DNA of 64,000 nucleotides from Oceanobacillus timonensis (GTDB taxonomy: Bacteria; Bacillota; Bacilli; Bacillales; Amphibacillaceae), in assembly GCF_900166635.1 (NCBI RefSeq), contig NZ_LT800497.1:4202344-4266343 (forward strand). Direction: 5' to 3'. This document shows, piece by piece, positions 651 to 17,257 of the stretch. The stretch's first letter is position 1; the number at the start of each line of letters is the position of its first letter. The position numbers were made by a program, and so were the translations under genes. Under the pieces are notes generated by a model. The model saw only the letters and a list, made by a program, of their open reading frames with translations, ran no database searches and had not been told where the DNA came from.

Positions 651-864
651 AGCTGTTCCTCCTGATGTTAATATATGAGGTATACTTTCCACATAAACAG
701 AAAAACCAAACATATCATGGGAATTTTATGAAAGAATGCTCAGAAGATATTTTTCTCGCATACTTCGCGAATTATTCTATAGACGATTCATAAGAGACAT
801 TGATACATCATCAATTTGTTGGTTTGCCATTTCCCGGTATACATCATAGCTCCGAATATCAAAA

Positions 865-910
865 TAATCATTTTAATCCACTTATCAACTTTAGATATTC
901 TTTTCCCCAC
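865..910 (-). pseudogene. 5' remnant of an older tnsA copy
   Basis: A GTG at 910 opens a frame whose first dozen codons, including KVDKW, match the N-terminus of the tnsA fragment near glmS (start 5377). After about codon 13 the similarity fades. The DNA match continues upstream of the start into the transposon end at 951-997, so this is a degraded copy of the same tnsA-plus-right-end module. It cannot make a functional protein. Confidence 0.6.
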
Positions 911-950
911 AAAAACACCCCTTTAGACAATCCTATCCAAAGGGGGTAAA

Positions 951-997
951 ATTTCGCGACTTTGTTTTAAACATGGCAACTTTATTTTTAATCTACA
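951..997. repeat. Older Tn7-like right end (two TnsB-type sites)
   Basis: Two similar 20-22-bp words (about 951-971 and 972-992) share the core CGACTTTGTTTTAAA / CAACTTTATTTTTAA and end with ACA at 995-997. Read inward the terminus is TGTAGATTAAAAATAAAGT, matching the end of the newer element at 5463 in position and core. This looks like the right end of an earlier Tn7-like insertion, with its tnsA remnant just to the left. Five bases (998-1002) separate it from the left tip of the newer element. Confidence 0.65.
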
Positions 998-1002
998 ACC
1001 TA

Positions 1003-1150
1003 TGTGGCTTTAAAATAAAGTTCGATCAAAAATATTCCGCAGATCCTCATTTTAGGACAATTAGAAAGAATCCGCTTTGAAAAAAGATTGATCAAAATGG
1101 ATTCTTCCCTTGTGAATTAATATACATTTTTTATAAAAAAATTTGATCAT
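1003..1150. repeat. Left end with three TnsB-type sites
   Basis: Three related AT-rich sites lie in the same orientation at about 1006-1030, 1074-1098 and 1127-1149. Each is an A/T stretch followed by GATCA (GGCTTTAAAATAAAG..., GCTTTGAAAAAAGATTGATCA, TTATAAAAAAATTTGATCA). Spaced triple sites are the known architecture of Tn7 left ends. The site assignment is by eye. Confidence 0.6.
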
Positions 1151-1278
1151 TTTATAGCTGCAAACTTCAACAATCGCGCTCCGTTAACGGAAGATGATTG
1201 ATGTTTAATAAGAATATCCTTCAATTTCACCATTTTACGACCTATAAATGATTTCCGTCGACTCTATTCGCAGTGAGA

Positions 1279-2139
1279 TTACTTTAGATAATTTTCTGTA
1301 GGAACACTCTTCATTAATCGCTTTAATTTATTTTCTGTATCAGTTTCATCTACTGGTGTATAAATACTGCACCGTAAATCCATATCACCCTGAACTTGAA
1401 AAGAAGTTAAATTAAAGAGCATTTTGCCGACCCTAGCATGTCTGAATTCAACCGTCAATTCTGGGGCTTTACTTACTTGGCTTTCCTGCCATAAATCCTG
1501 AAATTCGGGATGAGAATCACTCATTTCTTTAATAAATTGATCATACCATTCATCTCCCAAATACTGACCATAGTATGTGCGGAAAATTGCAAGAAAACCT
1601 TTCGCAAAATCCTCCCAATTAACAGCTAATGCTTTTAATTCCTTTCTGGTAAATACTAGACGAATCAAGTTTCTTTGATCATTCGGTATTTGTTCAAAGT
1701 CCAAAAAAACATGAGCAGCTGCAGAGTTCCAGCCTACAATATGGCAATGTCGATCCGTAATGATAGTCGGACAATGTTTTAATTCAGTTAGAATTCGTTT
1801 TAAAGAAGGGGTAAGCTCAGGTTGGTTCTTTATTGGATTTACTATTCCCGATTTTGCCTCCAAAGCAAGATCATATAAATGGTCAGTTTCATCATTATTC
1901 AATTGCAATGCTGTAGAAATACAATCAAGAACAATTGAAGAAACTTTTATATCTCTTCCTTGCTCTAGCCATGTATACCAGGTGGTACTTATACCTGCTA
2001 ATTGTGCAACTTCTTCTCTTCGTAAGCCGGGTGTCCTTCTCCGGGTTCCAGTAGGGAAACCAATAGACTCCGGCTTAATTCGAGCACGCTTAGCCTTTAA
2101 GAATGCCGATAAAGCCTCTAGTCTGATTTTATCATTCAT
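1279..2139 (-). CDS. MmyB-type XRE-family transcriptional regulator
   Basis: This 286-residue protein has an N-terminal helix-turn-helix at about residues 25-75 with the MmyB-family signature TPGLRREEVAQLAGIS. A C-terminal PAS-like ligand-binding domain follows (about 110-275). Members of this family regulate neighbouring oxidoreductase or biosynthetic genes, and a structurally characterised homologue held a fatty acid in its ligand pocket. The gene is divergent from the ketoacyl synthase at 2262, with a 122-bp shared control region containing a perfect 9-bp dyad. The natural inference is that it controls that gene and itself. The ATG at 2139 has an upstream GAGGTG. It is cargo of the Tn7-like element. 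The family is clear; the ligand is inference. Confidence 0.88.
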   Translation of the reverse strand: MNDKIRLEALSAFLKAKRARIKPESIGFPTGTRRRTPGLRREEVAQLAGISTTWYTWLEQGRDIKVSSIVLDCISTALQLNNDETDHLYDLALEAKSGIVNPIKNQPELTPSLKRILTELKHCPTIITDRHCHIVGWNSAAAHVFLDFEQIPNDQRNLIRLVFTRKELKALAVNWEDFAKGFLAIFRTYYGQYLGDEWYDQFIKEMSDSHPEFQDLWQESQVSKAPELTVEFRHARVGKMLFNLTSFQVQGDMDLRCSIYTPVDETDTENKLKRLMKSVPTENYLK

Positions 2140-2174
2140 TTTTAAAACACCTCATTGTATCAATGTTACCTAGT

Positions 2175-2202
2175 AGTAATTATACCAGGATAAATAATTA
2201 CT
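2175..2202. promoter_or_regulatory. Candidate operator between divergent regulator and ketosynthase
   Basis: AGTAATTAT (2175-2183) and its exact inverse ATAATTACT (2194-2202) are ten bases apart in the divergent intergenic region. A -10-like TATAAT at 2229-2234 points to the ketosynthase, but no good -35 is seen at standard spacing, which would fit an activated or regulator-shaped promoter. Binding by the MmyB-type regulator is inferred from position. Confidence 0.45.
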
Positions 2203-2261
2203 TGTAATAGGATAAAAAGGATGTAGAGTATAATTATACTATTGATTTGGAGGGGTGAAAA

Positions 2262-3497
2262 GTGGAAAGAGTTGTGATATCAGGTATGGGTGTAGTTTCC
2301 CCTACAGGAAGCAACATCAATACATTTTGGAACAATTTGATTAACGGTGAATCAGGAATATCTACCATTGATACATTTGATGTTACGAATCATAAGACAA
2401 AAATTGCAGGTATTACCCGAGATTTTGATGCAGATAAAGTTTTAGGAAAGAAAGAAGCAAAACGTTTAGATCGTTTTTCTCAATTTGCTTTGGCTGCGGC
2501 TGAACAGGCTTGGGAGGATTCTAAATTAGACCTCGATCGTATAGATGTTGAAAGGCTAGGAGTATACGTAGGTTCGGGTATAGGAGGAATTGAAACCTTA
2601 ATTGGAAACGTTGATGCGCTTAGACAGAAGGGGCCAAGAAGAGTTAGCCCAACTCTAGTACCTGCCATGATTTCTAATGCTGCCGCTGCCCAAATTAGTA
2701 TCAAGTGGAATGCGATGGGGCCTTCTATGTCGCCAGTTTCTGCTTGTGCAATCGGAAATACAGCTATTGGAGAAGCCTTTCGACTAATTCGTTCTGGAGA
2801 AGTTGACGTTGTGTTTGCGGGTGGAACCGAAGCAGCTATAACAGAATTATCAATAGCAAGCTTTAGTAATGCTACAGCATTATCAACAAGAAACAATGAT
2901 CCCACTAAAGCTAGTCGTCCATTTGATGAAAATCGAGACGGATTTGTCATGTCAGAAGGTGCTGGAATTCTAATCTTAGAATCTTTATCTCATGCTTTAC
3001 GTAGAGAAGCAAAGATTTATGCAGAAGTCATTGGATATGGTGCAAGTTCAGACGCACACCATATCGTAGCTACCCACCCGGAAGGTAAAGGCGCCTATCT
3101 TGCAATGAGATCGGCATTAAAAAATGCTAATATATCACCTGAGGAAATTGATATTATTAGTGCTCATGCAACAAGTACAAAAGTGGGGGACATCTCTGAA
3201 ACTAGGGCTATTAAGCAACTGTTTGGAAAACAAGCTTATCAGATTCCAGTAACAGCTAATAAATCTATGCTTGGTCATATGTTAGGGGCAGCTGGTAGTG
3301 TTGAAGCAATTGCTTTAGCAATGAGCTTAAAGGAAGGAATAGTTCCTCCAACTATTAATTTAGAAAATCCTGATCCATTATGTGATTTAGATTATGTGCC
3401 ATCTATTGCTCGCCAAATGAAAATAAATACGGCTCTATCTAACTCATTTGGTTTCGGAGGCCATAATGCAACTATTGCCTTAAATAAATACGAGTAA
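2262..3497 (+). CDS. Beta-ketoacyl-ACP synthase II-type enzyme
   Basis: This 411-residue protein is a full-length thiolase-fold condensing enzyme of the FabF/KAS II family. It condenses an acyl thioester with malonyl-ACP in the cytosol. The catalytic triad is intact: Cys162 in VSACAIGN, His302 in SAHATSTKVGD and His339 in SMLGHMLGAAGS, with Lys334 nearby. The usual FabF nucleophile context is TACATG, so SACAIGN is a little unusual. The start is GTG at 2262 behind GGAGGGG. No fabH, acyl carrier protein or malonyl transferase lies beside it, so it is probably an accessory paralogue rather than housekeeping fabF. It is cargo of the Tn7-like element and ends in a strong hairpin. Confidence 0.88.
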   Translation: MERVVISGMGVVSPTGSNINTFWNNLINGESGISTIDTFDVTNHKTKIAGITRDFDADKVLGKKEAKRLDRFSQFALAAAEQAWEDSKLDLDRIDVERLGVYVGSGIGGIETLIGNVDALRQKGPRRVSPTLVPAMISNAAAAQISIKWNAMGPSMSPVSACAIGNTAIGEAFRLIRSGEVDVVFAGGTEAAITELSIASFSNATALSTRNNDPTKASRPFDENRDGFVMSEGAGILILESLSHALRREAKIYAEVIGYGASSDAHHIVATHPEGKGAYLAMRSALKNANISPEEIDIISAHATSTKVGDISETRAIKQLFGKQAYQIPVTANKSMLGHMLGAAGSVEAIALAMSLKEGIVPPTINLENPDPLCDLDYVPSIARQMKINTALSNSFGFGGHNATIALNKYE

Positions 3498-3509
3498 ATA
3501 AACATCATC

Positions 3510-3546
3510 AAACTCTAACCGTTTTTTCCAGAAACGGTTAGAGTTT
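3510..3546. terminator. Terminator after the ketosynthase
   Basis: AAACTCTAACCGTTT and its perfect inverse AAACGGTTAGAGTTT flank a seven-base loop, 12 bp after the ketosynthase stop. The A/T-rich sides could serve either strand. Confidence 0.85.
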
Positions 3547-3627
3547 ATTCAAGTAAATGACCCTTATGCGCGATTTCATTAGTGAATCGCATGCAATAAT
3601 TGAAAATGGACCCACGATATTCTTCTA

Positions 3628-3840
3628 TTAGCCTGCTCTACTTTCTTTACTTGCCGAAATGATGAAGACCATTGGCTCCCGATTTTCACCTTTCATTTGA
3701 GAATTATTTTTAACAATTCGTCTGAAGGGAGGCAATTCCTTGACTGCTCTTATAATAAAACCAGTATCAATTAAATCATTAATATATGTTGAAATAATCC
3801 ATATATTCGTAGCAATTGACATGGATAGAGTTTCTATCAC
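3628..3840 (-). pseudogene. Fragment resembling a methyltransferase C-terminus
   Basis: A 70-codon open frame with a GTG start has a C-terminal pattern, STYINDLIDTGFIIRAVKE followed by REPMVFIISA, that resembles the last strands of class I SAM-dependent methyltransferases. The nucleotide-binding N-terminal half is missing and no upstream frame supplies it. It most likely is a decayed remnant inside the Tn7-like cargo region. The resemblance is by eye from a short sequence, so the family call is tentative. Confidence 0.4.
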
Positions 3841-4012
3841 TTCTTTTATATACTCCAGCTTTCGAAATTCATGATTTCATCCTTTTTACATTAATAATAC
3901 TTATACTAATATAAATATTATTAATTTTACATTAGCAGTTTTTAAAATTAAAATAGAATATGTAATCAAATTTTGAGGCATATTTAGTGAATCAAAGTAG
4001 GGGGTTTTTATT

Positions 4013-4771
4013 TTGGGAAGGTTAGATAACAAAGTAGCGATTATTACTGGAGCTGCTGGTGGACAGGGTGCAGCAGCAACGAGGTTATTTGCTAAAGAAG
4101 GGGCATATGTTGTTGCAACAGATATGCAGGAAGAATTGCTATCAAAAACAGTTGAAGAAATTAATAAAGAATATGGTGATAAAGTAGTCGGTTTGAAACA
4201 TGACGTGTCCAATGAAGATGATTGGGTTTCTATTGTAGATGAAACAATAAAGCGCTTTGAGAAAATAGATGTCTTGATAAATAATGCAGGCATTGCAGGG
4301 TTGCAAAGTTTAAAGCCAGAAGATTTTGAAATGGACGAAGTAGATAAAGTTTTAAATATTAACCTAAAAGGAAACTTCTTAGGTATTAAAGCAGTCACTC
4401 CAAATATGAGAAAAAATAAGTCTGGCTCTATTGTGAATATTTCATCTATTGCAGCATTCGTTGGAGATCAAGGCGGATTGTCCTACCACGCTTCTAAAGG
4501 TGCAACACATTCATTAACAAAAGCAGTCTCTTTGGAGTTGGCAAAAGACGGAATCCGGGTAAACTCTGTACATCCCGGTATTGTTATGACACCAATGGTT
4601 GAAGCAGCGATAGACGAAGAAACAAAAAGATTAAAAGAATCTACTATACCATTAGGGTTTATCGGCGATCCGGATGATATTGCATATCCTGTTCTATTTG
4701 TAGCTTCAGATGAAGCTCGATTTATGACGGGCACAGAAGTTATTGTTGACGGAGGTACTATTGCGCGATAA
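4013..4771 (+). CDS. SDR-family NAD(P)-dependent oxidoreductase
   Basis: This is a 252-residue classical short-chain dehydrogenase/reductase. The cofactor motif TGAAGGQG is at residues 12-19, NNAG at 90-93, and the catalytic set is Ser144/145, Tyr158 and Lys162 (YHASK). Overall it resembles the 3-oxoacyl reductase, cyclopentanol and hydroxysteroid dehydrogenase branch; the exact substrate cannot be read from sequence. The start is TTG at 4013, preceded by GTAGGGGG. It is the last intact cargo gene of the Tn7-like element, following a ketoacyl synthase and a fatty-acid-sensor-type regulator. Keto reduction of a condensed acyl product is therefore a reasonable guess. Confidence 0.85.
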   Translation: MGRLDNKVAIITGAAGGQGAAATRLFAKEGAYVVATDMQEELLSKTVEEINKEYGDKVVGLKHDVSNEDDWVSIVDETIKRFEKIDVLINNAGIAGLQSLKPEDFEMDEVDKVLNINLKGNFLGIKAVTPNMRKNKSGSIVNISSIAAFVGDQGGLSYHASKGATHSLTKAVSLELAKDGIRVNSVHPGIVMTPMVEAAIDEETKRLKESTIPLGFIGDPDDIAYPVLFVASDEARFMTGTEVIVDGGTIAR

Positions 4772-4960
4772 ATATATATGGCGAATTGACTGTTGAGTGA
4801 TTTCAGAAAGGCATTCTGCGCTCCATCCGCACCAAGTAGGCCAATGGTGTTCCTTTAAAAATAGTATTCGTAAGCAGTCAGAATTAAAAAGCGACTGGCT
4901 TGCCATTCTAATTACCGATTGCGCTTTGAGTGATTAGGAAATCATTCGTATCTATGGCAT

Positions 4961-5002
4961 GCGCTGAGCGATAATCCGAAGGTTTGGATTATCGTTCAGC
5001 GC
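4961..5002. repeat. 17-bp inverted repeat
   Basis: GCGCTGAGCGATAATCC (4961-4977) and GGATTATCGTTCAGCGC (4986-5002) pair with one G-T mismatch around an eight-base loop. It lies between the SDR and the tnsA fragment. It may be a terminator-like hairpin or a trace of another insertion; no long T run follows. Confidence 0.6.
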
Positions 5003-5038
5003 TTTCCTTTCGGTAAAAATCACTGATTTCCTGTATAT

Positions 5039-5377
5039 TCACTTTGGCGTCATTACAATTGACTCACCAGTTTTAGGATCCGTAGGATGTTTAACACCTA
5101 ACTCATCTGCGATAAGAATTGTTTCCTCATGGGGTAATAATGGAAATTGCTCGTGAACGTCTAATGTTACATCAGAAAATTCAGCCACATAAAAGCAGTT
5201 TCGTTCCAAGTCCGACAAGAATTCATGTTGTCTTCCAGTTTTTATACCTTTTAGTCTTGTAGATCTGCCTAATGAGGAAACATCTTGAATCTTTAACCAT
5301 GGCTGATAGTTTACATCGTTTCCAGCTCCTCGGCCTTCTTTAACCCACTTATCAACTTTAGAAGTTCTTTTTAACAC
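5039..5377 (-). pseudogene. tnsA: Truncated tnsA (Tn7-type transposase endonuclease subunit)
   Basis: The 112-codon frame matches the N-terminal catalytic domain of TnsA, the restriction-enzyme-like subunit that cuts the 5' strands during Tn7 excision. Diagnostic pieces are RSTRLKGIKTGRQHEFLSDLE, a VHEQFPLLP segment and the GVKHPTDPKTG turn. The first acidic catalytic residue (the Glu of SDLE) is present. The frame stops right after SIVMTPK, just where the family continues into the segment carrying the remaining Asp and Lys of the active site. It is about 40% of normal length and should be inactive. The start is GTG at 5377. It reads away from glmS, beginning about 90 bp inside the element end, as tnsA does in Tn7. 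Confidence 0.8.
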
Positions 5378-5417
5378 AAAAACGCCCCTTTAGATAATCA
5401 TGTCCAAAGGGGCAAAA

Positions 5418-5463
5418 CGGTGCAACTTTTTTATAAACGGTACGACTTTATTTCAAAGCCACA
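5418..5463. repeat. Right end of Tn7-like element (two TnsB-type sites)
   Basis: Two adjacent 20-bp words, CGGTGCAACTTTTTTATAAA (5418-5437) and CGGTACGACTTTATTTCAAA (5438-5457), are followed by GCCACA ending at 5463. Closely packed sites ending in ACA match the Tn7 right-end plan. The tip lies 27 bp from the glmS stop codon. Confidence 0.65.
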
Positions 5464-5490
5464 AAACATCATTGAATCCTTTTCTTTTTA

Positions 5491-7293
5491 TTACTCAACC
5501 GTAACACTCTTCGCCAAATTCCGCGGTTTATCCACATCACAATCACGGTGCAGCGCTGCATAATAAGCCAGAAGCTGCATTGGAATAACACTTACCAACG
5601 GCGTTAACAACTCATGAACTGGCGGCAATACAAACGCATCCTCATCCTGCTCTAAACCTTTGGAGCTGACGATAAGTGCATTCGCCCCGCGTGCAACAAC
5701 TTCTTGTACGTTGCCGCGAATAGAGTAGTTTACGTTCTCTTGTGTCGTTAAAGCAATAACCGGTGTACCTTCTTCAATTAAGGCAATGGTTCCATGCTTT
5801 AGCTCTCCTCCAGCAAAACCTTCTGCTTGGATATAAGAGATTTCCTTCAGCTTCAATGCTGCTTCCTGTGCCACATGATAATCGGTACTGCGGCCAATAT
5901 AGAAAGCATTACGTGTGGTAGCAAAATAGTCTCTTGCTAACTGCTCCAACTCTTCTTTTTGGTTTGTAATTACTTCCATTGCATTCGCTGCAATCGCAAG
6001 CTCCTGTAATGGATCAAACTCTAATTTGATACCTTTTGCTTTCGCTGAATCCACTGCAAGCACTGCTAAAACAGCAATTTGTGCTGTATAAGCTTTTGTG
6101 GAAGCTACAGCAATTTCTGGTCCAGCGTGTAAAGGTAATGTATAATTTGCTTCACGAGAAAGGGTTGATCCAGGTACATTTGTTAATGTTAGTGCTGGAT
6201 GTCCTAATTCTTTAATTTTAACTAATACGGCACGGCTGTCTGCTGTTTCCCCACTTTGGGAAATAAAGATAAATAAAGGTTTTTCAGACAGCAGCGGCAT
6301 GTTATAGGAAAATTCACTTGCTACATGCACTTCTACAGGAATGTTCGAAAGCTTTTCTAAAAATTCTTTTCCAACTAAACCGGCATGGTAGCTGGTTCCT
6401 GCTGCAATGATATAAATGCGATCCGTTTTTTGCATAGCTTTTCGAATATCTTTGTCTAACTTTAATTCGCCTTTTTCATTTTGGTATTCACGAATAATAT
6501 TGCGCATCACGATTGGCTGCTCATCAATTTCCTTCAGCATAAAGTGCGGATATGTTCCTTTTTCTGTATCGTTCGCATCAATTTCCGTTATGAATGGCTT
6601 CCGTTCAAGAACTTCTCCATCTAATGTCTGTACTTCCACAAAGCTGCGGTTCACAAGTACAATTTCTTTATCATAGATTTCCAAGTATTCGTTTGTTTCT
6701 TTCAACGTAGCCATCGCATCGCTGGCAATTAGATTAAATCCTTCTCCTAACCCAACCAGCAGTGGACTTTTATTTTTGGATACATATAAAGTGTCCTGAT
6801 CTTCTGCGTCAATCAAACCGATAGCATAAGAACCTTTCAACAGGCTCATTGCTTCTCCAAATGCTTTTTTGGTGTTTTTATGTTTTTCATAAAGTTTTTC
6901 AATCAGCTGCACAATAACTTCTGTGTCTGTTTCACTCACAAAGTCAACATCTTGCAAGTACTCTTTCTTTAGAGCGATATAGTTTTCAATAACCCCATTA
7001 TGCACAATAGTAAAACGTCCTGTTACACTCTGATGTGGATGTGCGTTTTGCACACTTGGCACCCCATGAGTAGCCCAGCGAGTATGACCAATACCAATAG
7101 CAGCATCATTTTTGTTATCTACTTCTTTACGTAACGCTGCAATCCGTCCTTTTACTTTGGTTACGTGTACCCCATTATCGCCTAAAGTAGCAATACCTGC
7201 AGAGTCATATCCGCGATATTCTAATTTTTCCAAGCCTGTTAATAAAATTTCTTTCGTATCATTTTGTCCAATATAACCGACGATTCCGCACAT
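5491..7293 (-). CDS. glmS: Glutamine-fructose-6-phosphate aminotransferase
   Basis: GlmS makes glucosamine-6-phosphate from fructose-6-phosphate and glutamine, the first step to UDP-GlcNAc for the wall. The 600-residue protein begins MCGIVGYIG with the catalytic Cys2 of the glutaminase domain. Two SIS sugar-isomerase domains follow, for example GTSYHAG and SQSGETADS, and it ends in the conserved [12 protein letters not shown]. That last stretch is the TnsD recognition region in Tn7 hosts, and a Tn7-like end sits 27 bp downstream. The frame is open further upstream, but ATG at 7293 with AGGAGGA is the true start because Cys must be residue 2. Expression is governed by the glmS ribozyme at 7554-7711. 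glmM lies about 5 kb away on the same strand. Confidence 0.98.
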
Positions 7294-8072: not shown

Positions 8073-9866
8073 TTACTTATGCTCTTCCATAAAATCTAAC
8101 ATCCGCTTATATACTTTCATTTCATTTTCCTTTTTCGAGAATCCATGGCCCTCATCTTCCAGCACCAGATACTGAACATCCCGTCCTTTATCCTGCAGCT
8201 TTTGCACAATTTGATCCGATTCTTCCTTTACGACGCGGGGATCTTTTGCTCCTTGAATAACCAGCATCGGTTTGGTCATCGTTTCCAGATAGGTTACCGG
8301 AGAGTCTTCTACGAACCGCTCTTTATCCCGCTCCGGATCACCGAGCCATCTTTCCATAATCGGTTTCCAGTGTGGTGGTACCGAATTGACAAACGTAAAT
8401 AAATCAGACGGCCCAAAGATATCAATCACTGCTTTAAAATACGCCGGATGACGTCCGTGCAAGAGCAGTGCCATATAGCCGCCATAGCTTCCCCCTACTA
8501 AGAATAGATGGTCCGGGTCGGAGATATTTTGATCAAACAGCCATTTAACACCCTCCACATTATCGAGACGCGGTCCATGTCCCCAATCTTGTTCCACAAG
8601 TTTCACAAAAGAAGAACCATACCCCGTACTGCCGCGGAAGTTTGGTGCAAAAATATGATAACCGCGGTTAAGAATACTTTGAAACATAGCACGGAAAAAT
8701 TTCCGTTCTGCGGCCTGCGGACCACCATGTGGCCAAAACACGGTATATCCATTAGCATTTTCCGGTTTTGCCCTGAACAGCAGCGATTCGATTTCCATTC
8801 CGTCAAAAGAAGAATACGTTACCATTTCAGGATCGACAAGTTCTTCTTCAGAGACGCCTAAGACACGGTTATCTGTAAGCTGCTCCCACTTTTCATTATC
8901 TGTCAGTCGGTAAATATTATCTGGCTTCACCGCTGATCCTCCCAGGATATAAACTGCCCCTGACTCTGTTATGGTTATCTGATCAACCAAATCAAAAGGC
9001 TTTTTGATTTCTTTTAGCTCTCCAGATATCAGTTTATACTGATAAAGCTTATCTTCCACCCCTTTTGCCGTTACTACATATAAGGAATTGGACGATTTAT
9101 CGTATTTGACGATTTCAATGGACTCTTCTGCCAATTCAAGCACTTTTGAAAACGTCTCTTGCTCGATGTCATACTTAGCAAGATACATATATTCACTGTC
9201 AAAATCCGTCGGGAAATAAATGCTGTTATTATCCGTGAAAACTGGTTCATAGGATACATGCACTTTTTTCGGATCTGGAGTCAGATAAACTTTTTTATCT
9301 TCCTTTTGAATAAAAATATTATTGTATGTGTTCGCGAACATACTTTCATATACGAACGTTCCTTCATCTTCGGATACAGCTAGCAGCGTAGTCGGAGCGC
9401 CTTCTCCTTCTACTAAAAGCTCATCCTTATCCGTATCAAGGTGGCGTACACGCGTGTTTAGAAAGTTCGGATTGTTTTCAGACGTATTATAATATACGCG
9501 TTTCCCGTCCTTACTCAGGTGTGCAAATAAATATTTTTCGTTCTCTGCACCTGTAATCAGCGGCTGCGGTATTCCTCCCGCTGGAGGCAATGCGTAAATC
9601 TGATAATTTTCATCCCCATCTGAATCAAAACTTGTTAAGACATATGTTCCGTTCGGGTCAAACTGAATAAATAAGGAAGATTCATCCTTGTGAGCGAATG
9701 GATAGGGGTAAGGATGCCCTTTACTCAAATCCAATGCCCATAAATTACGTTTTCCGCTTAAATTGGTTGAAAAAATAAGTTTTTTCTCATCTTTGCGTAC
9801 TTGAAAATGATCGATACTATACGTATGAAAAAATTGCTCCACTTCCGGTTTCGGAAATTTAATCAT
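8073..9866 (-). CDS. S9-family prolyl oligopeptidase/acylaminoacyl peptidase
   Basis: The 597-residue protein has an N-terminal beta-propeller (about 1-340) and a C-terminal alpha/beta-hydrolase domain. The catalytic triad is visible: Ser460 in GGSYGGYM, Asp542 in GAKDPRV and His574 in EDEGHGF. S9 enzymes cleave short peptides, often after proline or removing acylated N-terminal residues. No signal peptide is seen, so a cytosolic role in peptide turnover is likely. The ATG at 9866 follows GGGGAGAG. It stands alone between the glmS region and the monooxygenase operon. The exact peptide specificity cannot be told from sequence. Confidence 0.92.
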   Translation of the reverse strand: MIKFPKPEVEQFFHTYSIDHFQVRKDEKKLIFSTNLSGKRNLWALDLSKGHPYPYPFAHKDESSLFIQFDPNGTYVLTSFDSDGDENYQIYALPPAGGIPQPLITGAENEKYLFAHLSKDGKRVYYNTSENNPNFLNTRVRHLDTDKDELLVEGEGAPTTLLAVSEDEGTFVYESMFANTYNNIFIQKEDKKVYLTPDPKKVHVSYEPVFTDNNSIYFPTDFDSEYMYLAKYDIEQETFSKVLELAEESIEIVKYDKSSNSLYVVTAKGVEDKLYQYKLISGELKEIKKPFDLVDQITITESGAVYILGGSAVKPDNIYRLTDNEKWEQLTDNRVLGVSEEELVDPEMVTYSSFDGMEIESLLFRAKPENANGYTVFWPHGGPQAAERKFFRAMFQSILNRGYHIFAPNFRGSTGYGSSFVKLVEQDWGHGPRLDNVEGVKWLFDQNISDPDHLFLVGGSYGGYMALLLHGRHPAYFKAVIDIFGPSDLFTFVNSVPPHWKPIMERWLGDPERDKERFVEDSPVTYLETMTKPMLVIQGAKDPRVVKEESDQIVQKLQDKGRDVQYLVLEDEGHGFSKKENEMKVYKRMLDFMEEHK

Positions 9867-12348: not shown

Positions 12349-13692
12349 TTATGCTCCTAAATGCGTTTCAATAACTTTCACAATACGCTCTGCATATGCT
12401 TCACAATCTTCTTTTGTTTTTGCTTCCACCATAACACGAACAAGCGGTTCTGTTCCGGATGGGCGGACTAAAACGCGGCCATTCTCACCTAATTCTTCCT
12501 CAACAGCTTGTACCTCATCTAAAACAATAGGGCTGGTCAATGCCTCATTTTTATCAATGACACGAACATTTACCAATGTCTGTGGAAAAATGGTCATTTC
12601 ATCTGCCAACTCAGATAAAGGTTTCCCTGACTCTCGAATAACATTCACAAGTTGCAATGCAGAAAGGAGGCCATCCCCCGTTGTAATATAATTCAGGAAG
12701 ATAATATGACCGGATTGTTCTCCGCCTAAATTATAACCGTTTTTGCGCATTTCTTCCATGACATAGCGGTCACCAACTGCCGTCTTTTCGCTTTTTAAAC
12801 CTGCTTCTTCCAAAGCTTTATAAAAACCTAAATTACTCATCACTGTAGATACCACTGTGTCCTCACGCAGCATACCAATTTCTTTCAAGTATTTTGCGCA
12901 GATGAACATGATTTTATCACCATCTACAATTCTTCCTTTTTCATCCACAGCGATTAAACGATCCCCGTCTCCATCGAAAGCCAGACCGACATCTGCTTCT
13001 TTTTCCAGTACAAATTCCTGCAGACGTTCCGGATGCGTAGAGCCGACGCCATCATTAATATTCAGCCCATTTGGAGACGAGCCCATCGAGTGTATATCTG
13101 CTTCTAAATCTGCAAATAGATGGGTAGCAAGGCTGGAGGTTGAGCCGTGCGCACAGTCCACTGCAATACGTAAACCATCAAAATCATTATCAATGGTATC
13201 TTTTAAGAAGGACAGATATTTTTGTCCGCCTTCAAAATAATCACTCACGGAACCAATAGCAGCACCAGTCGGCCGAGGTAATTCATCCTCTTCTTTTTCT
13301 AGTAAAGCTTCGATTTCTGCTTCTTGGTCATCCGTCAGTTTAAAACCGTCCGATCCAAAGAATTTAATGCCGTTATCTTCTACAGGATTATGGGATGCAG
13401 ATATCATCACACCTGCCTGCGCGCTCATTGCCTTTGTTAAATAGGCAACACCCGGTGTGGAGATAACACCAAGCCGCATCGCTTCAACCCCTGTTGATAA
13501 TAAGCCTGCGATTAATGCGCCTTCCAGCATATATCCGGAAATACGGGTGTCCCTGCCAATCAGAACTCGTGGTTTGTCACTGTCTTTTGTTAAAACATAA
13601 CCGCCAAAACGGCCAAGCTTAAATGCCATTTCCGGAGTCAGCCCTTCATTCGCTACTCCTCTGACCCCATCTGTTCCAAAAAATTTACCCAT
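12349..13692 (-). CDS. glmM: Phosphoglucosamine mutase
   Basis: GlmM converts glucosamine-6-phosphate to glucosamine-1-phosphate on the way to UDP-GlcNAc. The 447-residue protein starts [15 protein letters not shown]. It carries the active-site phosphoserine loop [17 protein letters not shown] near residue 100, the metal loop DGDGDR near 240, and the phosphate-binding [14 protein letters not shown] near 410. Length is normal. It is the third gene of the cdaA-cdaR-glmM operon, 35 bp after cdaR. In Firmicutes GlmM also binds and restrains CdaA, so the operon joins wall precursor synthesis with c-di-AMP. ATG at 13692 follows AAAGGAGAG. Confidence 0.98.
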
Positions 13693-13727
13693 TTTTTATC
13701 TCTCTCCTTTGACCATCCAATATACAA

Positions 13728-14957
13728 CTATTCTTCGGTTTGAGCTGGTTCTGTGATATCAACCGTCACTTCTTCTACATCACTTGTCGCTGTTACATTA
13801 TCTGGAGCTTCAATGTCAATAGGCACCTCATGCTCTCCCGCTTCCAAATCCGATAAATCTACTATGGCATCAATATCATCTGCCGTTACATCATTTACCT
13901 CCGAAGCATCTCCTGTTATTTCCACATCCAATTCAGGGTCTGTATAGGAAGTTTCCAGTCCATTTCCTAAACCTTCTTCTTCTAAAGAAACATTTTCAAG
14001 TACATTCGTTCCTTCCACTTCAACCTCTACTTCCACTTCTTCCGTATCCGGCGCTTGTACATCTTCTGGTAAATCCAGCGGTACTTCTACCGTTCCGGAT
14101 TCTTCAATGTCCGATAAGTCTAATGGTTCGGTACTTACTTCCGAAATATCCTCTAACACGTCACTTTGAGAGAAAATCTCTACTTCTTCTTCGTTTGGCG
14201 TAATGGAGTCAATTTCCAGATCTTCTTCCAGTTCACCAGTGGTCTCTACGGAAAGCGGAACAGACTTACTTGGATTATTTACATCCACAGAAACTTGAAT
14301 ACTTTCCGGTTCCAGTCCAACATCTAATTCATTTCCCTGTACATCGTATACATTCACTGGAAGCTCACGGTTATCAATGGAAGAATCCACATCCTCCATA
14401 TTCACATAGACTTTTACTGCGCCAATGGCTTCAATCACTTCTCTGGAACTTGTAATGGTCACTGTTTCCGGATCAATACTGTAATCAGCTACCTCATAAC
14501 CATCTGCCATCCTATCCTGATTAATAAAATCAGGTGTTACCGAGAACTCTTGTGATGCACGCTCTTCAATTGTCACTTCTACCGTCTTCGGCTCAATAAA
14601 TGCTTCTACATCACCTGTGATATTATGCTGTAATTCTACAACATGTGTCCCTTCATCTAATCCTTCTAAATCAACAAATACATCAAAATTCCGTTGCAGT
14701 AATACCGGCGTCACATTGGCAGGTGTTCCTTGTAAACTTACCTGTACATTTTCCGGGACGCCGCTGACAACGTATTTTTCACGATCAATATCAATATCCA
14801 CCGGAACTTGATCCAAAACTTCTGTTGAGTTTGTGGAACTGGAGAAAGTTGCATCGGAATTTGGTGTTTCTGACACACTGACGAAAGCATAAAGGGTGAC
14901 GGCAAAGGCTAAAGAAAGAATACGGACAAACCATTTACTCTTAAACCAATTATCCAC
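13728..14957 (-). CDS. cdaR: CdaA regulator with YbbR domains
   Basis: CdaR (YbbR) is a membrane-anchored regulator of the diadenylate cyclase CdaA. The protein has a short N-terminal membrane helix (WFVRILSLAFAVTLYAF, about residues 9-26). The rest is extracellular, composed of four YbbR repeats, very acidic and ending PAQTEE; such acidity suits a salt-tolerant organism. I chose GTG at 14957, giving MDNWFKSKWF as in B. subtilis CdaR, because the ATG nine bases upstream sits too close to its GGGGGA. The start overlaps the end of cdaA, implying translational coupling. Length is about 409 residues, slightly short for the family. Confidence 0.93.
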   Translation of the reverse strand: MDNWFKSKWFVRILSLAFAVTLYAFVSVSETPNSDATFSSSTNSTEVLDQVPVDIDIDREKYVVSGVPENVQVSLQGTPANVTPVLLQRNFDVFVDLEGLDEGTHVVELQHNITGDVEAFIEPKTVEVTIEERASQEFSVTPDFINQDRMADGYEVADYSIDPETVTITSSREVIEAIGAVKVYVNMEDVDSSIDNRELPVNVYDVQGNELDVGLEPESIQVSVDVNNPSKSVPLSVETTGELEEDLEIDSITPNEEEVEIFSQSDVLEDISEVSTEPLDLSDIEESGTVEVPLDLPEDVQAPDTEEVEVEVEVEGTNVLENVSLEEEGLGNGLETSYTDPELDVEITGDASEVNDVTADDIDAIVDLSDLEAGEHEVPIDIEAPDNVTATSDVEEVTVDITEPAQTEE

Positions 14958-15771
14958 GTTTACCATTCCCCCATTTCCATAATTTTTTATCAGAGGTTTT
15001 TGGTACGATTGATAGGTGTGTTAACAGCATTTCTCTCAATTTTTCTTCACGAATATCACGATGTAATTCACCATTCTTTGTACAAGAGATAGAACCTGTT
15101 TCCTCCGAGACAACAATCGTCAATGCATCGGTTACTTCACTTATTCCCATCGCAGCACGGTGTCTCGTTCCCAGCTCCTTTGAAATAAATGGACTCTCAG
15201 ATAAAGGAAGGTAACAGGCTGCAGCAGTAATCTCTTCATTTTTTATAATAACTGCGCCATCATGCAGCGGTGTGTTCGGTGTGAATATGTTTGTTAAAAG
15301 CTGGTGTGTAAGCTTTCCGTTGATGGGAATCCCTGTTTCCGCATAATCACCTATCCCTGTTTCCCGTTCAATAGAGATGAGGGCACCAATTCTTCTTTTT
15401 CCCATATAATTACATGATGTAACAATTGCTTCTATTTCATTTTGTATAATTTCTTCTGCGGAGCTGCCAGACCTGGCAAATATGTTTCCTCTTCCTAACT
15501 GCTCCAGCGCTCTCCGCAATTCCGGCTGGAATAAAATAACTATTACAATAACTCCCCAAGAAATAACTTGGCCGGTGATAAATTGTACAGTTTGCAAGCT
15601 TAACAGCATACTTACGCCCCATACAACCAATACAACTGCTATTCCCTTTAACAGCTGAATAGCTTTTGTTCCTCTGATCAGCATGATTAATTTATATAAT
15701 ACATACCAGACGAGAGCGATATCAACGCCAATTCGCAGCAGATTTAAAATGTCAAATCCCCCATCAAGCAT
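14950..15771 (-). CDS. cdaA: Diadenylate cyclase (c-di-AMP synthase)
   Basis: CdaA makes cyclic di-AMP from two ATP and controls potassium, turgor and wall homeostasis. Three N-terminal membrane helices (about residues 10-75) precede the cytosolic DAC domain. That domain shows the hallmark DGAVII (TPLHDGAVIIKN) and the RHR motif (GTRHRAAMG). I place the start at ATG 15771 (MLDGGFDILNLLRIG), which has AAAGGATG upstream; a TTG seven codons earlier is open but lacks a ribosome site. It is the first gene of the cdaA-cdaR-glmM operon and overlaps cdaR. About 270 bp separate it from rsiW. The assignment is firm. Confidence 0.97.
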   Translation of the reverse strand: MLDGGFDILNLLRIGVDIALVWYVLYKLIMLIRGTKAIQLLKGIAVVLVVWGVSMLLSLQTVQFITGQVISWGVIVIVILFQPELRRALEQLGRGNIFARSGSSAEEIIQNEIEAIVTSCNYMGKRRIGALISIERETGIGDYAETGIPINGKLTHQLLTNIFTPNTPLHDGAVIIKNEEITAAACYLPLSESPFISKELGTRHRAAMGISEVTDALTIVVSEETGSISCTKNGELHRDIREEKLREMLLTHLSIVPKTSDKKLWKWGNGKRG

Positions 15772-16036
15772 GCGCACACATCCTTTACCCAATAGTATAA
15801 CCTGTTTATTTTTAAAACAATAGATTGTATTATCATTAACAAATTTACAGTCGGTATTTATTATATCATAAATTTGTAAAAACAGACCTGTCTGTTGTTT
15901 ATTCTTTTTCGTTTTTTCTGATGTTATCTATCGTAACTTTTGAAGCAATCCATTCTTCTCCTAACAGGAAAAAGAGAGCACTGTACAGCTCCCTTTTTCA
16001 ACTTCCTATCTATATCACATTCCAGAGGATATGCAC

Positions 16037-16678
16037 TTAAAATGAAATTAATCCTTTAAAAAAATGCTTCACATGATACCAAACCCATTCAAACGATTGG
16101 TCAACGGTTTCCAATTCACCGTTGACACCCCCTGCTGATGCCATGAGACCGCCGCCTTCAAGTTCGGAATCGCCGTCTACCAATTCACCATTAAACAGGG
16201 TAACATTTCCATCAACCGTTCCAAGCACTAATAAATCACCGTTTTTCACGTAAACGTCCCCTGAAACAGTAACACCTTCCGGAACAATCACTGTATCTCC
16301 ATCCACAACCAGTTCCTCTTGTGCAGAGACAACAAGTTGATCTGTTCCCTGATTAAAAGTAGAAGAAAGGCTGCCTACCATCAACAAGAAAAAAATCGCT
16401 GCTGCGACCAGGATTGGATGGTGTTTAAACCAGCGCTTGTACTTCACCGATTTCTTCTCTGTAGGCAAATGATTCATGACATTTTCGGTAAAACCGTTGG
16501 GTGCTTCAATCCGTTCTGCACTTTGAATGAAAGTAATCGTTCGATTCAGTTCATGAAAATGCTTTTGACATTCTTCACAATCCTCCAGATGTTTTTTTAG
16601 TAAGCTTTCGTCTTCTGCGGAGATATCTCCATCTAAATAATCATGCATTTTTCTTATATATTTTTCATTACAACTCAC
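16037..16678 (-). CDS. rsiW: Anti-sigma-W factor
   Basis: RsiW holds sigma-W at the membrane until regulated proteolysis frees it under envelope stress. The N-terminal zinc-binding anti-sigma domain shows [15 protein letters not shown] (about residues 30-44). One membrane helix follows ([19 protein letters not shown], about 88-106), and the extracellular C-terminal part is rich in Val, Gly and Asp. I set the start at GTG 16678 ([19 protein letters not shown]), matching the MSC start of B. subtilis RsiW and giving good spacing from AAAGGAG. The outer part, with its repeated short strands, is not like the usual RsiW tail and may respond to a different signal. It is co-transcribed after sigW. 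Confidence 0.93.
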
Positions 16679-16693
16679 ATCAAGCACGCTCCT

Positions 16694-17257
16694 TTACACA
16701 TGTCGAAGCCTCTTTCTTAAAGCCTCTCTCCCACGATGAATCCGTGTTTTTACAGTACCGAGAGGAACATCAAGAATTTCACTAATTTCTTTTAGTGAAA
16801 ACTCTTCTAAATATCGGAGCATGATTATACTTCGATATTTAGATGGAAGCTGCGAAATTTCATGGTGAATATACCGTTTCAGCTCTCTGCTTTCCACTTC
16901 TTCTCCGGGAAGCCGTTCCGTACTAGCAAGCTGCGAATACATATCTAAACCTTCCGTCCCCTTAACTTCCGCATCAAGGTGGAAATCCGGTTTACGCTTG
17001 CGCATACGGTCAATCGTTAAATTGGTTGCTATACGATATAACCATGTAGAGAATTTTCTATTCTCATCAAATGAATCAATATTCACATATGCACGTATAA
17101 ATGCTTCTTGCGCAATATCTTCCGCTTCGTGCTTATTACCAAGCATACGATAGCAATGCCGGTATATTTTATCCTGATAAAAGGTTACTACATCTGAAAA
17201 AGCAGACTGATCTCCTTTTTTAACTTGTATAATCTGTTTCTTTATAAATTGCTCCAT
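16694..17257 (-). CDS. sigW: ECF sigma factor SigW
   Basis: The 187-residue protein has the length and sequence of Bacillus sigma-W, which directs genes against envelope stress and membrane-active compounds. Region 2 is visible as DKIYRHCYRMLGNKHEAEDI followed by FSTWLYRIATNLTIDRMRKR. Region 4 is LPSKYRSIIMLRYLEEFSL and LGTVKTRIHRGREALRKRL. The start is MEQFIKKQII at 17257; the frame is open upstream but the autoregulatory promoter lies in that part. rsiW follows 15 bp downstream. Confidence 0.97.
   Translation of the reverse strand: MEQFIKKQIIQVKKGDQSAFSDVVTFYQDKIYRHCYRMLGNKHEAEDIAQEAFIRAYVNIDSFDENRKFSTWLYRIATNLTIDRMRKRKPDFHLDAEVKGTEGLDMYSQLASTERLPGEEVESRELKRYIHHEISQLPSKYRSIIMLRYLEEFSLKEISEILDVPLGTVKTRIHRGREALRKRLRHV

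Follow-up and report, generated by a model that had tools for sequence, protein, structure and literature searches.

A non-autonomous Tn7-like element beside glmS in Oceanobacillus timonensis, and transposase-less cassettes with related ends in its family

Why does the region directly downstream of glmS in Oceanobacillus timonensis carry a unit with the ends of a Tn7-like transposon and only the beginning of a transposase gene, and how did that unit come to lie there? The unit, here called element A, measures 4.46 kb and occupies positions 1003-5463 of the window, a 64,000-nucleotide stretch (C3:4202344-4266343) of a 4.49-Mb genome that is 99.99% complete in 3 contigs (G000). We drew on a genus set of 28 genomes, 27 of which were compared downstream of glmS, and on a family set of 159 genomes; two genomes recur below, the same-genus G073 and G128, the latter carrying the element L052 with its tns genes. 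Element A proves to be a genuine Tn7-like unit at glmS that is non-autonomous, and as a single case it extends Tn7 biology modestly. It is very probably a natural mini-Tn7, descended from a Bacillota tnsABCDE-type transposon, no longer autonomous, and brought in by a TnsD-type pathway that acted in trans. The wider population of transposase-less cassettes bounded by target duplications is a more interesting result than element A alone.

The terminal 18-mers of element A agree at 17 of 18 positions, and 1003-1021 is complementary to 5445-5463 at 95% over 19 nucleotides. Mismatch-free matches to TGTGGCTTTRAAATAAAG occur in the whole genome only at these two termini; five further places with one or two mismatches were all assigned to Tn7-like ends (element B and the C cluster), and the 14 places with three mismatches, one of which is the end at 997 of the older element E1 described below, do not exceed chance expectation: the backwards control of the same search gave 12 matches in total with mismatch classes pooled. 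The left end (1003-1190, plus strand) is a conserved, roughly 180-bp module that recurs as a unit, with two other copies of its positions 1-183 in the genome at 87% and 76%. It carries three spaced 20-bp TnsB-like sites, called by motif match, at 1009-1028, 1075-1094 and 1130-1149 (plus strand), the second of them within an AGAATCC...GGATTCT inverted repeat (1064-1107). The module ends at a CAATCGCGC(C)CGTT-like motif (1166-1185) that is common to elements B and C1. The right end (5418-5463, minus strand) has a TGTGG terminus, and its two 20-bp sites abut each other (5438-5457 and 5418-5437). Beyond these sites the 64-kb window holds one more weak match, with 3 mismatches, and in 20 single-base shuffles of the window the site matches averaged 0.45 and never exceeded 3. 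As a sequence pattern, element A thus has TGT/ACA termini and TnsB-type site arrays that are spaced on the left and abutting on the right.

The right end is proximal to glmS (5491-7293, minus strand), the 3' end of which is the attTn7-type target, and a spacer of 27 bp (5464-5490) separates it from the stop codon; the spacers of corresponding ends are 24 bp in G073 and 26 bp in G080. A preliminary description of this DNA had proposed near-identical inverted ends, three spaced sites on the left and two close ones on the right, and a position 27 bp from glmS, and it was accurate in each respect.

All that remains of the transposase genes in element A is the 5' part of tnsA (5039-5377, minus strand), which reads inward from the right end as first proposed and encodes 112 amino acids. 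Pfam and NCBIfam profile scans of this protein gave no match, but it aligns to residues 8-99 of Tn7 TnsA (1f1z) with E=1e-21, which places it within TnsA and not outside that family. Its similarity to intact TnsA ceases at about 5048, before an Asp aligned to position 114 of 1f1z. The TnsA of L052, 81% identical over the length of the stub, runs on and includes the aligned Asp, which we take to be the catalytic one. A promoter-like sequence, TTGCAC-17-CATGAT (5397-5425, minus strand), whose -35 element begins in the inner right-end site, is located as in relatives with a complete tnsA. In a comparison for signs of decay, which says little with 57 shared alignment columns, a number reduced by one ill-fitting row (L083), the stub has two private changes at invariant positions, I74V and R75H, compared to 0-2 in 21 relatives, two of which likewise carry two; a third private change, T111P, falls past the similarity break.

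An autonomous Tn7-like transposon would have tnsA, tnsB and tnsC, and element A has the tnsA stub only. The preliminary description had suggested looking elsewhere in the genome for tnsABCD, and TnsB, TnsC and TnsD were not found there, with positive controls for the TnsB search alone. Profile PF08722 was silent in the whole genome and even in controls, and protein queries were therefore used. The TnsB of L052 had no match in G000, G073, G080 or G149 among seven genomes tested, while it matched with E=0 in G064 and G065 and gave a remote match with stops in G031. Profile PF05621 (TniB) gave four weak matches in the O. timonensis genome, all at or below 24 bits and two barely above the cut-off, in frames of 285-817 amino acids. 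PF00665 (rve) gave five, all in frames of at most 429 amino acids, a search with little bearing on TnsB, since even the TnsB of L052 fails to match PF00665 at E<=0.01.

Relatives with complete transposition genes occupy the same site. Full-length matches to TnsA-E lie beside glmS at L050, L052 and L059, and at L056 with interrupted tnsC and tnsD; TnsE was recognized by PF18623 in L052 and by tblastn in L050 and L056-L059. In the tns-operon relatives L050, L052 and L056 the distance between the glmS stop and the start of the element is 24-25 bp. The L050 element measures 13,358 bp between its CTCAA duplicates, and another right end follows six bases on. The ends of element A, compared with those of relatives as the preliminary description had advised, agree with the ends of such Bacillota elements. 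Four right-end sites at 20-bp steps (offsets 10, 30, 50 and 70) are present in all six examined elements in which tnsA and tnsB are both complete, and element A keeps two of the four; a simple count of the motif gives one to four in other elements.

Element A does not stand alone in the window. Positions 872-950 repeat 5339-5417 at 85% and belong to a second right end that stops with ...CTACA at 997, so that element A forms a tandem pair with an older element, E1, and is the one closer to glmS. The E1 right end, with two sites left and the first 12 or so tnsA codons, spans 872-997 (minus strand); a match to tnsA codons 181-219 (756-872, minus strand; 44%, E=3e-5) abuts it, the 5' codons having been joined to the later ones via an internal deletion. 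E1 interior and cargo fill 1-871, 92% identical to G073 in a match that extends about 149 bp beyond the window, and the five bases ACCTA (998-1002) lie between E1 and element A. Because the right-end repeats differ, being CGATG-like in E1 and CCGTTT in A, element A is no mere copy of E1. That such right-end subtypes let the two coexist by escaping mutual target immunity was considered and dropped, since neighbours at L050 share one subtype.

G073 lacks element A at this place, and an E1-like element, 92% identical over 1,021 bp, begins there 24 bp from the glmS stop. When the flanks of A were joined and aligned to G073, the junction was continuous, with a spacer of 27+5 bp against 24 bp. G073 most likely represents a natural pre-insertion (empty) site, into which element A entered between E1 and glmS; clean loss of A from G073 is less likely. 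The empty site that the preliminary description had hoped to see in a sister strain was thus found within the genus, and similarity continuous across both borders of A, which it had named as contrary evidence, did not appear in G073. Its view of a real Tn7-like element stands; its picture of a solitary unit does not, as E1 adjoins A, the genome has several such elements and the family has many.

The stub used as a TnsA query matched 42 of the 159 family genomes, many of them partially, with tnsA pieces that vary widely in length, and the 188-bp left end matched 92 (25 of 28 in the genus), some partially. When the two lists were compared, 58 of these 92 genomes had no TnsA match. Left ends were drawn from one match list with at most five candidates scored per genome, and loci were fetched for part of the listed matches, so that counts of left ends are lower bounds. 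There were 58 distinct left ends: 27 had a candidate right end and 31 had no recognizable one within the fetched stretch. Identical 5-bp flanks bound 14 elements, compared to a mean of 0.30 and a maximum of 4 identical pairs in 5,000 trials with permuted flanks. Two of the 14 contain tns operons, tnsABCD in L049 and tnsABCDE in L050; the other 12, of 904 bp to 17.3 kb, have no match to tnsB or tnsC, and the remnants among them are tnsA and tnsD in L196, tnsD in L220 and a 19-residue tnsA piece in L008. The two-site right-end array of element A is shared by three duplication-bounded elements, L164, L167 and L176 (= L256), for which reason this form is probably competent for transposition; the motif script counted one stray match further inward for A and L164.

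Taken as a natural mini-Tn7, element A would have undergone an internal deletion of tnsB to tnsE, of the 3' portion of tnsA and of two right-end sites out of four, and would have gained or retained its present cargo of a regulator, a FabF synthase and a reductase. It would have been inserted by TnsABC and TnsD in trans, from an element or plasmid since gone, and would now be stranded, with renewed movement only upon the arrival of a matching TnsABCD. This reading draws on the TnsA stub (E=1e-21), whose loss starts directly ahead of the Asp that aligns with position 114, on the tns-operon relatives at 24-25 bp from glmS together with the G073 junction, and on the failure to find TnsB, TnsC and TnsD together with the duplications around 14 of 58 relatives, 12 of them free of tnsB and tnsC. 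Several points weigh against it. No 5-bp target duplication is visible around A, which has ACCTA on the left and AAACA on the right, as the preliminary description had recognized, and a single clean insertion is consequently not proven. The spacer to glmS is 27 bp, not 24-26 bp as in relatives, and the pre-insertion evidence comes from one genome, G073, with a contamination estimate of 6% and a diverged spacer. The transposase searches of the O. timonensis genome were confined to TnsB, TnsC and TnsD; the TnsD of L052 had no match and its TnsC just an 11.7-bit match, both in searches without a positive control in the same tool, although the two queries match L048, L049, L050 and others by tblastn. 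Finally, that element A may be mobile in trans is inferred.

The lack of a visible duplication would also suit a composite, in which ends from two tandem glmS elements were fused by deletion and the unit never transposed as such, a history that partly overlaps with the one just given. Stacked elements do exist (three right ends at L050/L051 and two tns operons at L057) and E1 shows that internal deletions occur, but the TnsB-like sites at both ends of A are intact, and the 27+5 bp against 24 bp at the G073 junction is about what is expected of a diverged 5-bp duplication; we consider a composite unlikely. Selection might instead have kept the stub, e.g., as a dominant-negative partner of TnsB or TnsC that damps incoming Tn7-like elements, and its promoter-like sequence, start codon and 112 open codons would fit this, as would the recurrence of tnsA 5' pieces at right ends elsewhere (L053, L054, L060, L061). 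Such pieces differ widely in length, however, and a tnsA match is missing from 10 of the 12 defective elements that have perfect duplications, which leaves this idea highly improbable. The sequence downstream of glmS varies among the 27 genus genomes, as it would if the unit were an ordinary segment of a genomic island with end-like sequences arisen by chance; given exact ends that are unique genome-wide, the site array, the G073 junction and the permutation test on duplications, we give this next to no credence.

The cargo of element A begins with an Xre-type regulator with an MmyB-like ligand-binding domain (1279-2139, minus strand; PF17765 E=3.7e-41, PF13560 3.1e-8), divergent from the gene of a FabF-type beta-ketoacyl-acyl carrier protein synthase II (2262-3497, plus strand; TIGR03150, 594 bits against a cut-off of 493.75), which is followed by a short-chain dehydrogenase/reductase (SDR; 4013-4771, plus strand; PF13561 E=3.1e-62). 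Alignment of the FabF protein to 4ls5 shows conserved Cys, His and His positions, the roles of which we presume. PADLOC found no match among the three cargo proteins. A fatty-acid-bound MmyB-like regulator and frequent neighbours of the SDR type have been reported from actinomycetes (PMC3406030), and the cargo of element A is likely a fatty-acid-responsive accessory FabF unit. Terminator-like hairpins follow fabF (a perfect 15-bp stem, 3510-3546) and lie between the reductase gene and the tnsA stub (an imperfect 25-bp stem, 4956-5007).

The region downstream of glmS holds more than one kind of end. By eye, several genus genomes (L104-L129) have end-like sequences of other repeat types, starting with TGT, about 23-26 bp from the glmS stop, for which reason several Tn7-like families may share the site. 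G084 and G070 appear to be empty there by eye, with a hairpin in its stead. A second homing site besides glmS is the 3' end of nrdJ, the gene of the B12-dependent ribonucleotide reductase: elements lie 20-21 bp from its stop in four genomes, one with tnsABCD (G064/L049) and three defective (G149/L167, G067/L196 and G079/L220), and the gene was identified by profile PRK08115 at L049, L167 and L196. The nrdJ elements of G067 (L196 4891-6561) and G079 (L220 7431-9101) appear by eye to have the same two cargo genes, with unlike right-end types and 5-bp flanks, as if cargo had moved between end types.

Outside glmS and nrdJ the sites are scattered. Relative to replication as inferred from GC skew, 43 of 55 left ends there are oriented as at glmS (p=3e-5), and 39 of 55 are by gene direction; with both criteria agreeing and a skew above 0.03 the count is 38 of 48 (p=6e-5), figures in which several left ends per genome are not independent and in which some glmS-proximal cases may be included, the position of glmS being known for part of the contigs. 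For comparison, 19 of 20 left ends near glmS and 4 of 4 at nrdJ have this orientation. Left ends that run counter to the bias number 12 of 55 when judged by skew, 16 of 55 when judged by gene direction, and 10 among the 48 clear cases. TnsE is reported to steer Tn7 insertion with an orientation preference that tracks replication (PMC5371812), and the bias in our set is suggestive of replication-fork-oriented (TnsE-type) insertion; it could also stem from selection on gene direction, or from att sites that went unseen downstream of genes with the same direction. We advance as a tentative proposal, one that we stop just short of favouring, that the Bacillaceae-type family carries a large and largely undescribed population of natural mini-Tn7 elements, often without a matching transposase, spread in trans by both Tn7 pathways, i.e., homing to glmS and nrdJ and fork-oriented insertion. 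Among the open-licence literature listed, as titles and starts of abstracts, there was no description of a non-autonomous Tn7-like family in Bacillota.

The O. timonensis genome itself contains a 2,395-bp mini-element with CTGAA on both sides (C3:3361891-3364285; L008 4892-7286), which encodes an APH(6)-like kinase and a nucleotidyltransferase, the latter matched weakly by PADLOC to candidate system PDC-S09, and has its 19-residue tnsA piece at the right end; the kinase scores above the Pfam cut-off of APH_6_hur and below the NCBIfam cut-off of APH_6. At C3:3483376-3491159 (L017 5377-13160), a 446-bp mini-element with apparently one small membrane protein by eye is followed by further left and right ends with no matching duplications. 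A 462-residue reverse-transcriptase-like open reading frame (ORF; YADD motif by eye) lies inside this cluster, and adjoining it are recombinase-like ORFs, which we take to resemble those of Tn554. In partial profile scans, cargo elsewhere comprised a CadD-type cadmium transporter with an ArsR-type regulator (L179), an alpha/beta hydrolase with a LysR regulator (L176), and glyoxalase and RibD_C proteins (L190). The left end also matches 34 of 72,556 plasmid records, and four that were opened had no right end with a matching duplication. On plasmid pB218 of Metabacillus sp. (L216), spoVAC-AD-AE, DUF1657 and DUF421 genes (13368-17058) accompany a left end at 9001, the spoVAC-AD-AE group lying 4-8 kb inside it, with no right end within the stretch. 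Phages gave one partial left-end match, over 53% of the query.

MITEs (miniature inverted-repeat transposable elements) and other non-autonomous derivatives retain their ends, have lost the transposase and occur in several dispersed copies. A-type cassettes are similar in all of this but keep whole cargo genes and asymmetric Tn7-type ends, some at homing sites, and element A, 4.46 kb with three cargo genes, is not a short, non-coding MITE. Laboratory mini-Tn7 vectors place Tn7 ends around cargo and are moved solely in trans; element A, in contrast, is natural and resides in wild genomes. It resembles Tn7 in its TGT...ACA ends, its spaced left and close right sites, its right end by the glmS 3' end and its inward tnsA, and differs in the TnsA stub, the two right-end sites, the lack of a visible 5-bp duplication and a genome in which TnsB, TnsC and TnsD were not found. 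With the Bacillota tnsABCDE elements at glmS (L052, L050) it shares a closely related TnsA, the 20-bp right-end steps, the tnsA promoter-like sequence and the target, but those carry tnsA-E and A instead its regulator/FabF/SDR cargo. Tn7 has four partially overlapping right-end sites, the last two of which must overlap (PMC11406308), and the relatives that keep tnsA and tnsB likewise have four.

A TnsC-based survey of Tn7-like elements starts from tns genes (PMC10293859), and surveys of this kind would miss elements that have lost them. Should there be a wider population that is defined by its ends alone, Tn7-driven gene traffic in Bacillota has been undercounted, and its cassettes would offer natural experiments on which arrangement of ends is enough (two right-end sites), on insertion stacked against an older element in spite of target immunity, and on the use of nrdJ as a homing site alongside glmS. 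If the proposal is true, small operons like the FabF unit of element A would be circulated by the transposase of a minority of hosts.

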